Source: Ardenticatenales bacterium
GTDB lineage: Bacteria > Chloroflexota > Anaerolineae > Epilineales > Epilineaceae
Direction: 5' to 3'
Assembly: GCA_020853525.1 (NCBI GenBank)
Contig: JADYYS010000036.1
Location: forward strand, 62,001 to 126,000
DNA: 64,000 nt
Both the position numbers and the translations under genes were made by a program. Shown piece by piece: positions 1,235 through 2,332 of the stretch; position 1 is the stretch's first letter, and every line of letters begins with the position of its first letter. The notes beneath the pieces are model-generated. The model was not told where the DNA came from. It ran no database searches and saw only the letters and a list, made by a program, of their open reading frames with translations.

Positions 1235-1852
1235 TCAGGTGCTCGACGGCGGCGCCTGCAGCGGCGCCCCGACGATCTCCCACGCCCGCACGAAGTCCTC
1301 CGGCTCGATCCCGAGCCCATCCGCGATCCGGTTGATGTAGTTGAAGTAGCCGATCACCTGCGCCGCGTCGTGCACGCCCGCGTCGCCGAACCCCGCGGCC
1401 CGCAGCGCTGCCACGTCATCCGCCGTCATCGCCCCCGGCGTGCGCGTGAGCTTGTCCGCGTAGGCGCACAGCGCGGCGTCCGGCGTGGCCAGCGGCGCGG
1501 TCCGCCAGTCCATGGCGACGGCGTTCACGTAGGCGTCGGCGTCGGCGGCCGACAGCCCGAGGTCCGCTTCGACCTCGGCACGGAGGTCGTGGGCGTGGGC
1601 CCGCGTTCAGTAGAGGCACTGGTTCAGGCGCGAGACGACGCACGCCAGCATCTCGCGCTGCGAGCGCGTGAGGGGCGATGGGCCGAACATGATGGCCCCG
1701 TAGAAGCGCATCGAGGCCTGCAGCGCGCGCGCGTTCTGGCTCATCAGGCTGACGATGTGCCAGATCCGCCCAGCCCGCGACATCGCCGCGTCGTACTCGG
1801 CCTTGAGCAGCCCTTCGGCCTCGTCGTGGCCGATGACCTCGATCCACGGCAT
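1235..1852 (-). CDS. AhpD-like peroxidase-related selenoprotein (in-frame UGA = Sec82)
   Basis: The gene is split by one TGA (1607-1609), but both halves belong to the same alkylhydroperoxidase D-like/carboxymuconolactone decarboxylase fold family. Upstream half: 81 residues ending 'CVVSRLNQCLY'. Downstream, without any frame change: 'TRAHAHDLRAEVEADLGLS' through '...FNYINRIADGLGIEPEDF'. The family motif is C-x-x-C-x-x-x-H; here it reads Cys79-Leu-Tyr-UGA82-Thr-Arg-Ala-His86, so the UGA sits exactly at the second redox Cys. Read through, the protein is 205 residues, normal for the peroxidase-related group. A hairpin follows the UGA at SECIS distance (separate entry). AhpD proteins reduce peroxides or peroxiredoxins through this dithiol; a selenenylsulfide version is expected. 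It lies 18 bases after a MarR gene and is probably co-transcribed. The terminal stop is also TGA. The alternative is a nonsense mutation or assembly error; the intact downstream half argues against old decay. Confidence 0.8.
1571..1588 (-). promoter_or_regulatory. Candidate bacterial SECIS hairpin
   Basis: On the mRNA strand, 18 bases after the UGA, GACCTC pairs perfectly with GAGGTC around the six-base loop CGTGCC. The loop begins 24 bases after the UGA and carries G at its second position followed by U. Bacterial SECIS elements are hairpins just inside the ORF with the apical loop roughly 16-37 bases after the UGA and a conserved G in the first loop positions, so the geometry fits. It also encodes protein (DLRAEV), as bacterial SECIS elements must. 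Confidence 0.65.
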
Positions 1853-1870: not shown

Positions 1871-2332
1871 TCAGGCGTGGCGTGCGTTGACGGCGTTCGC
1901 CGTCGCGCGGTCGAGGGCCGTCGTCAGGCGCGCGGCGTCGTGTTCGGTCAGCGCGCTGCCGAACAGGTCGGCGACGCTCGCCGCATACACCGGCCATGCG
2001 GCCAGCAGCGCCCGCTCACCCGCCTCGGTCAACGCGGCGTACGCCCCGCGACGGTCGTTCGGGCAGCGCTCGCGCCGGAGCAGGCCCTCGGCCTCCAGGC
2101 GGTCGACGAGCCGCGTCAGGCCGCTGCGGCTGAGGACGACGTGGTCGGCCAGCTCGTGCATGCGCCGCCGATGGTCCGGCGCGTCGCGGAGCGCGAGCAG
2201 CACATCGCACGTGCCGAGGCAGACGCAGCCGGCCTCGGCCAGACGGTGGTCGACGGCTTCGATCAGGCGCGCGTGGGCGGTGAGGAAGGCCCGCCAGGCG
2301 CCGAGGACGCCCTCGCAGACGTAGGGTTCCAT
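1871..2332 (-). CDS. MarR-family transcriptional regulator, Cys-rich
   Basis: 153-residue MarR protein: helical N-terminus, winged helix ('ELADHVVLSRSGLTRLVDRLEAEG') and the wing signature 'DRRGAYAALTEAG', then C-terminal dimerisation helices. Four cysteines (6, 36, 38, 42) cluster in the N-terminal dimer/sensor region, with another in the wing ('RERCPNDRR'), suggestive of thiol-based sensing as in OhrR-type MarR proteins; this is inference. The ATG at 2332 is chosen over upstream starts because a TATGAT box ends six bases before it, giving a leaderless mRNA. A perfect palindrome covers the -35 region, so autorepression is likely. The AhpD-like selenoprotein gene begins 18 bases downstream, making this its probable regulator. 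Confidence 0.88.
   Translation of the reverse strand: MEPYVCEGVLGAWRAFLTAHARLIEAVDHRLAEAGCVCLGTCDVLLALRDAPDHRRRMHELADHVVLSRSGLTRLVDRLEAEGLLRRERCPNDRRGAYAALTEAGERALLAAWPVYAASVADLFGSALTEHDAARLTTALDRATANAVNARHA

Follow-up and report, generated by a model that had tools for sequence, protein, structure and literature searches.

A predicted AhpD-like selenoprotein with a C-x-x-U motif and a conserved SECIS hairpin within its coding region

The 64-kb window, that is, the whole stretch of 64,000 nucleotides which was analysed, carries a gene which, judging from its sequence, almost certainly encodes an AhpD-like selenoprotein with selenocysteine (Sec) at the second Cys position of the C-x-x-C-x-x-x-H motif. 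The gene combines an in-frame UGA and membership in a defined protein family with Sec/Cys exchange at the aligned codon, conservation of a downstream SECIS hairpin, and the presence of the Sec machinery in the source genome. A selenocysteine had already been proposed in a previous reading of the same DNA, made from the letters alone (here, the sequence-only reading), and the TGA and Cys codons of the homologues, the conservation of the SECIS, and the machinery support it as by far the best explanation. The features discussed are collected in Table 1.

Table 1. Features of the AhpD-like gene and its surroundings (positions in the window)
Feature	Positions	Strand	Basis
AhpD-like (CMD superfamily, TIGR01926) predicted selenoprotein gene, 205 codons plus TGA stop	1235..1852	-	Translation, Pfam, NCBIfam, homologues
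Predicted selenocysteine 82, in-frame UGA, in C79-L-Y-U82-TRA-H86	1607..1609	-	Translation and aligned codons of 125 loci
Bacterial SECIS hairpin: 5' arm 1589-1583 (CGACCUC), loop 1582-1577 (CGUGCC), 3' arm 1576-1570 (GAGGUCG)	1570..1589	-	Conservation, paired changes, synonymous-codon null, energies
Competing 8-bp hairpin CCGAGGUC-GAAGCG-GACCUCGG, overlapping the SECIS 3' arm	1557..1578	-	Predicted folds
MarR-family regulator gene, 18 bp upstream of the AhpD-like gene	1871..2332	-	MarR_2, 47.8 bits

The reading frame and its homologues

When TGA is read as U, translation from 1852 to 1235 yields 205 residues, with codon 82 as the sole internal TGA, and the sequence around it reads NQCLYUTRAHAHDLRAE, where C79, U82, and H86 form the active-site motif. 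The sequence-only reading had placed a single TGA at the second Cys of C-x-x-C-x-x-x-H, at residue 82 and followed by 123 further codons; this is confirmed, and we add the strand, which is minus and was absent from that reading. Under the standard code the gene is split into open reading frames of 81 amino acids (1852-1607) and 97 amino acids (1528-1235), and software without UGA recoding would probably report two fragments or a truncated protein, an annotation which the Sec reading corrects. The product matches the Pfam family CMD (35 bits) and passes the NCBIfam model TIGR01926 (peroxidase-related enzyme) over residues 2 to 186, with 130.3 bits against a curated cut-off of 81.8. C79, U82, and H86 of the C-x-x-[C/U]-x-x-x-H motif are invariant in an alignment of 16 sequences in which U was read as C. 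Among the 13 TGA-bridged frames of the 64-kb window that passed the composition filter, C-x-x-U is present in the AhpD-like gene alone, and the inverse motif U-x-x-C is present in none.

When we inspected 100 relatives, every match at an E value of ≤1e-10 contained an in-frame TGA, and in the 19 loci which were aligned it lies at the position equivalent to codon 82. The comparison was extended to 125 loci, drawn from genomes of the same phylum and from named records, and most of the homologues come from metagenome-assembled genomes. At the aligned codon, 114 loci have TGA, nine have TGC, and two have TGT, a ratio of Sec to Cys (11 in total) which is not a census since the loci were chosen by similarity to a Sec query; the earlier expectation of Cys at residue 82 in homologues is thereby borne out. 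Named carriers belong, among others, to Anaerolineae and Roseiflexaceae (Chloroflexota), Gemmatimonadota, Planctomycetota, Latescibacteria, Acidobacteria, Neomarinimicrobiota, and Candidatus Actinomarina. The Cys forms, at 27 to 39% identity, are from the source genome's own phylum. The examined homologues are single frames with TGA or Cys, and the two halves were never seen as separate genes. A homologue from the same phylum (L126, genome G333) was recorded as having two in-frame TGA codons within its match.

These data bear on the possibility that the TGA is a true stop, leaving either a pseudogene or an 81-residue truncated product. An 81-residue open reading frame with a start codon is indeed present, and TGA is the terminator of both the AhpD-like gene and the neighbouring MarR gene. 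However, the 123 codons 3' of the TGA continue in the same frame with family-typical sequence, the exact position keeps TGA or Cys in homologues, and 113 other loci carry the same TGA followed by conserved sequence; furthermore, in each of the six pairs compared, conservation is lowest at third codon positions both before and after the TGA. Together with the conserved SECIS and the Sec machinery, described below, this makes a true stop very improbable. A sequencing or assembly error, in which TGC or TGT was read as TGA, could be suspected in an unfinished assembly of 76 contigs, but it has a practically negligible probability given that the same TGA recurs in 113 further loci from many separate assemblies.

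The SECIS hairpin and a competing fold

Downstream of the UGA, the sequence-only reading had described a hairpin with a 6-bp stem beginning after 18 bases and a six-base loop whose second base is G, with U next to it, and we recovered the same structure. The stem GACCUC/GAGGUC starts 18 nt past the UGA (7 bp if the basal C-G pair is counted), the 6-nt loop lies 24 nt past it, and the core has a folding energy of -10.5 to -11.6 kcal/mol. The bSECIS model (PMC13188914) asks for a G within the first two bases of the loop, a loop lying 16 to 37 nt past the UGA, no fewer than 4 bp in the stem, and an MFE of ≤-7.5; the hairpin fits it with its loop at 24 nt, its 7-bp stem, and -10.5 kcal/mol, although in a longer fold a rival hairpin wins. 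The loose bacterial SECIS rule is also satisfied by a hairpin in 47% of shuffled downstream sequences, and the single-sequence rule was therefore dropped as evidence. Moreover, the MFE structure of the 63 nt around the UGA is the rival hairpin and not the SECIS, so that the SECIS claim rests on comparative evidence. A scan of positions 1200 to 2400 with Rfam at a permissive threshold gave no match, which does not speak against the hairpin, as such models may not cover bacterial SECIS elements.

The comparative set consisted of 93 homologues with (L/F)-R-x-E at the SECIS site, corresponding to 78 distinct sequences, and was set against a null in which the protein was kept fixed and synonymous codons were redrawn 500 times from the pooled usage of the same genes. 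Complete pairing of the six stem positions is seen in 63 of the 78 distinct sequences, against 7.8 on average and at most 17 under the null; a loop G with G or U directly after it is seen in 77, against 32.4 on average and at most 45. The significance is overstated, as the draws count kin sequences as independent, although several phyla are represented. Codon choice at the site is also biased: 88 of the 93 homologues encode the Leu with CTC, versus 28% elsewhere, and 92 encode the loop Arg with CGG or CGT. CGC is used for this Arg once, though it leads among the Arg codons in the rest of these genes (47%). At four of the six stem pairs both sides have changed, namely, G-C to A-U at 22-39, A-U to G-C at 23-38, C-G to U-A at 25-36, and, in 12 distinct sequences and via Val to Ile, C-G to U-A at 24-37. 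When nt 13 to 45 were folded locally, 111 of 114 TGA forms and 3 of 11 Cys forms gave a SECIS-like hairpin. Conservation against the codon-preserving null lifts the hairpin above chance, and the relatives provide an unusually clean example of SECIS conservation within a coding region, with avoidance of the commonest Arg synonym in the loop and paired changes passing through amino-acid changes such as Val to Ile. In a more distant subgroup (L031 to L036) a different hairpin lies nearer to the UGA (in L032, ACGGAG-CGGCG-CUCCGU), and the position of the SECIS thus appears to have shifted within one protein family.

In the copy studied here the 3' arm of the SECIS can also pair with the downstream GACCUCGG, and the resulting 8-bp hairpin alone has -16.4 kcal/mol. 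It is this hairpin that makes up the 63-nt fold around the UGA (MFE, -26.9; z, -1.66), and the 60-nt downstream fold reaches -28.4 kcal/mol when free versus -24.4 kcal/mol with the SECIS forced, with a SECIS pair probability of about 0.002. The folding check suggested in the sequence-only reading returned a folding and conserved core which the rival replaces in silico once the free RNA extends to about nt +54; the SECIS is predicted to dominate as long as no more than about 50 nt are free, and not beyond. The longer fold loses the hairpin in 15 of the 110 TGA forms which have it in the short fold (14 besides this copy), and since these behave likewise, the problem is neither unique nor fatal. 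The SECIS would be completed first during RNA synthesis, and SelB binding could favour it over the rival.

Selenocysteine machinery and the MarR neighbour

The search for selA, selB, selC, and selD which had been recommended for the source genome found all of them in the assembly (76 contigs, 96.85% complete). A single tRNA-Sec scores above the Rfam cut-off (68.3 bits), in agreement with ARAGORN, which reports tRNA-SeC(tca); SelA was found with 461.8 bits (E=1.9e-138), SelB with 325.5 bits versus a cut-off of 242.25 (E=4.9e-97), and SelD with 361.9 bits (E=3.6e-108). The selD gene (L018:1501-2427, minus strand, contig C30) has an in-frame TGA within a CAGU motif, at the usual Sec position of SelD, and SelD is thus itself a predicted selenoprotein. 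Among 40 relatives checked, 38 have a tRNA-Sec; one of the two without it (G002, 81% complete) has an AhpD-like gene with TGA, and its missing tRNA-Sec is likely due to the incomplete assembly. The source genome also has a distant AhpD-like paralogue (L038, C53:34262-34645, minus strand) with a TGA in C-F-F-U, for which visual inspection revealed no obvious loop matching the simple SECIS rule.

The identity of the residue inserted at UGA-82 is a prediction, which leaves room for a general recoding of TGA, for instance as Trp or Gly, or for nonspecific readthrough. Either is extremely unlikely, given that TGA terminates both the AhpD-like and the MarR genes, that homologues without TGA have Cys and none has Trp or Gly, and that selABCD and a SECIS are present. 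For the selenoprotein reading, the proposed sequence of events is that, when the ribosome reaches UGA-82, SelB with Sec-tRNA-Sec would bind the hairpin 18 nt downstream and Sec would be inserted, its supply being provided by SelA, SelC, and SelD of the same genome. The 205-residue product would belong to the TIGR01926 group and act as an AhpD-like thiol oxidoreductase or peroxidase, and its C79-U82 pair would cycle between a reduced selenolate/thiol state and a selenenylsulfide, most likely during peroxide reduction. We infer Sec insertion in vivo in this manner, as we do the substrate and the reductant.

The end of the MarR gene and the start of the AhpD-like gene lie 18 bp apart on the same strand, and the two are therefore probably co-transcribed. 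From this linkage the sequence-only reading had derived peroxide control of Sec use in the genome, which is not supported: the MarR gene was found adjacent in the source genome only, and a regulator linked to one gene would not mean control of the whole of Sec use. Searching the flanks of the other 124 loci by phmmer, with this MarR protein as the query, gave no match at an E value of ≤1e-3, some of these flanks being short and MarR proteins quick to diverge. The genes lying upstream in the nearest relatives, upon inspection, are varied and include no recognisable MarR. A conserved MarR-AhpD(Sec) operon was accordingly rejected, with a MarR match in one of 125 loci (its own) and differing upstream genes in the nearest relatives, and the linkage is, as far as tested, a local feature. 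Our literature search for selenocysteine, AhpD, and MarR jointly found nothing relevant. We consider it very unlikely that the rival hairpin and the upstream MarR gene together make Sec insertion or expression conditional in this lineage, with a SECIS that folds in certain translational states and not in others and an operon that reacts to a redox signal.

Comparison with known systems

Sec-containing AhpD-like proteins had been said to be known from other bacteria, and the literature bears this out: the Sargasso Sea yielded AhpD-like selenoproteins (PMC1088965), AhpD-like 1 and 2 with the motif CxxU were reported from the Global Ocean Sampling (GOS) survey (PMC2398784), and "AhpD-like protein, TIGR01926, CxxU" is listed as a known selenoprotein family in a 2026 review (PMC13188914). 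The best PDB sequence matches are the AhpD structure 6k40 (E=1.8e-27) and 2oyo, a "peroxidase-related protein" (E=9.3e-25). In the alignment with 6k40 the C-x-x-C-x-x-x-H motif falls at the same place, with C-V-Y-C opposite C79-L-Y-U82 and a His opposite H86, but 6k40 has Cys where Sec is predicted here. Classical AhpD (TIGR00777) belongs to the same superfamily and has the same active-site layout, whereas the score of our protein (17.9 bits, below the cut-off of 191.95) places it outside that subfamily. NF041238 (AhpD_rel_CFYUT, alkylhydroperoxidase-related (seleno)protein) shares a related domain and the C-x-x-U motif; however, it is a separate, longer family (357 positions), for which our protein scores 80.6 bits, below the cut-off of 175. 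With the catalogued AhpD-like TIGR01926 CxxU family, instead, the gene shares the model, the C-x-x-U motif, and a SECIS directly downstream of the UGA. It opens no new mechanism and shows no essential difference from that family, to which it adds one further sequence as a genuine member of an already catalogued group of selenoproteins.
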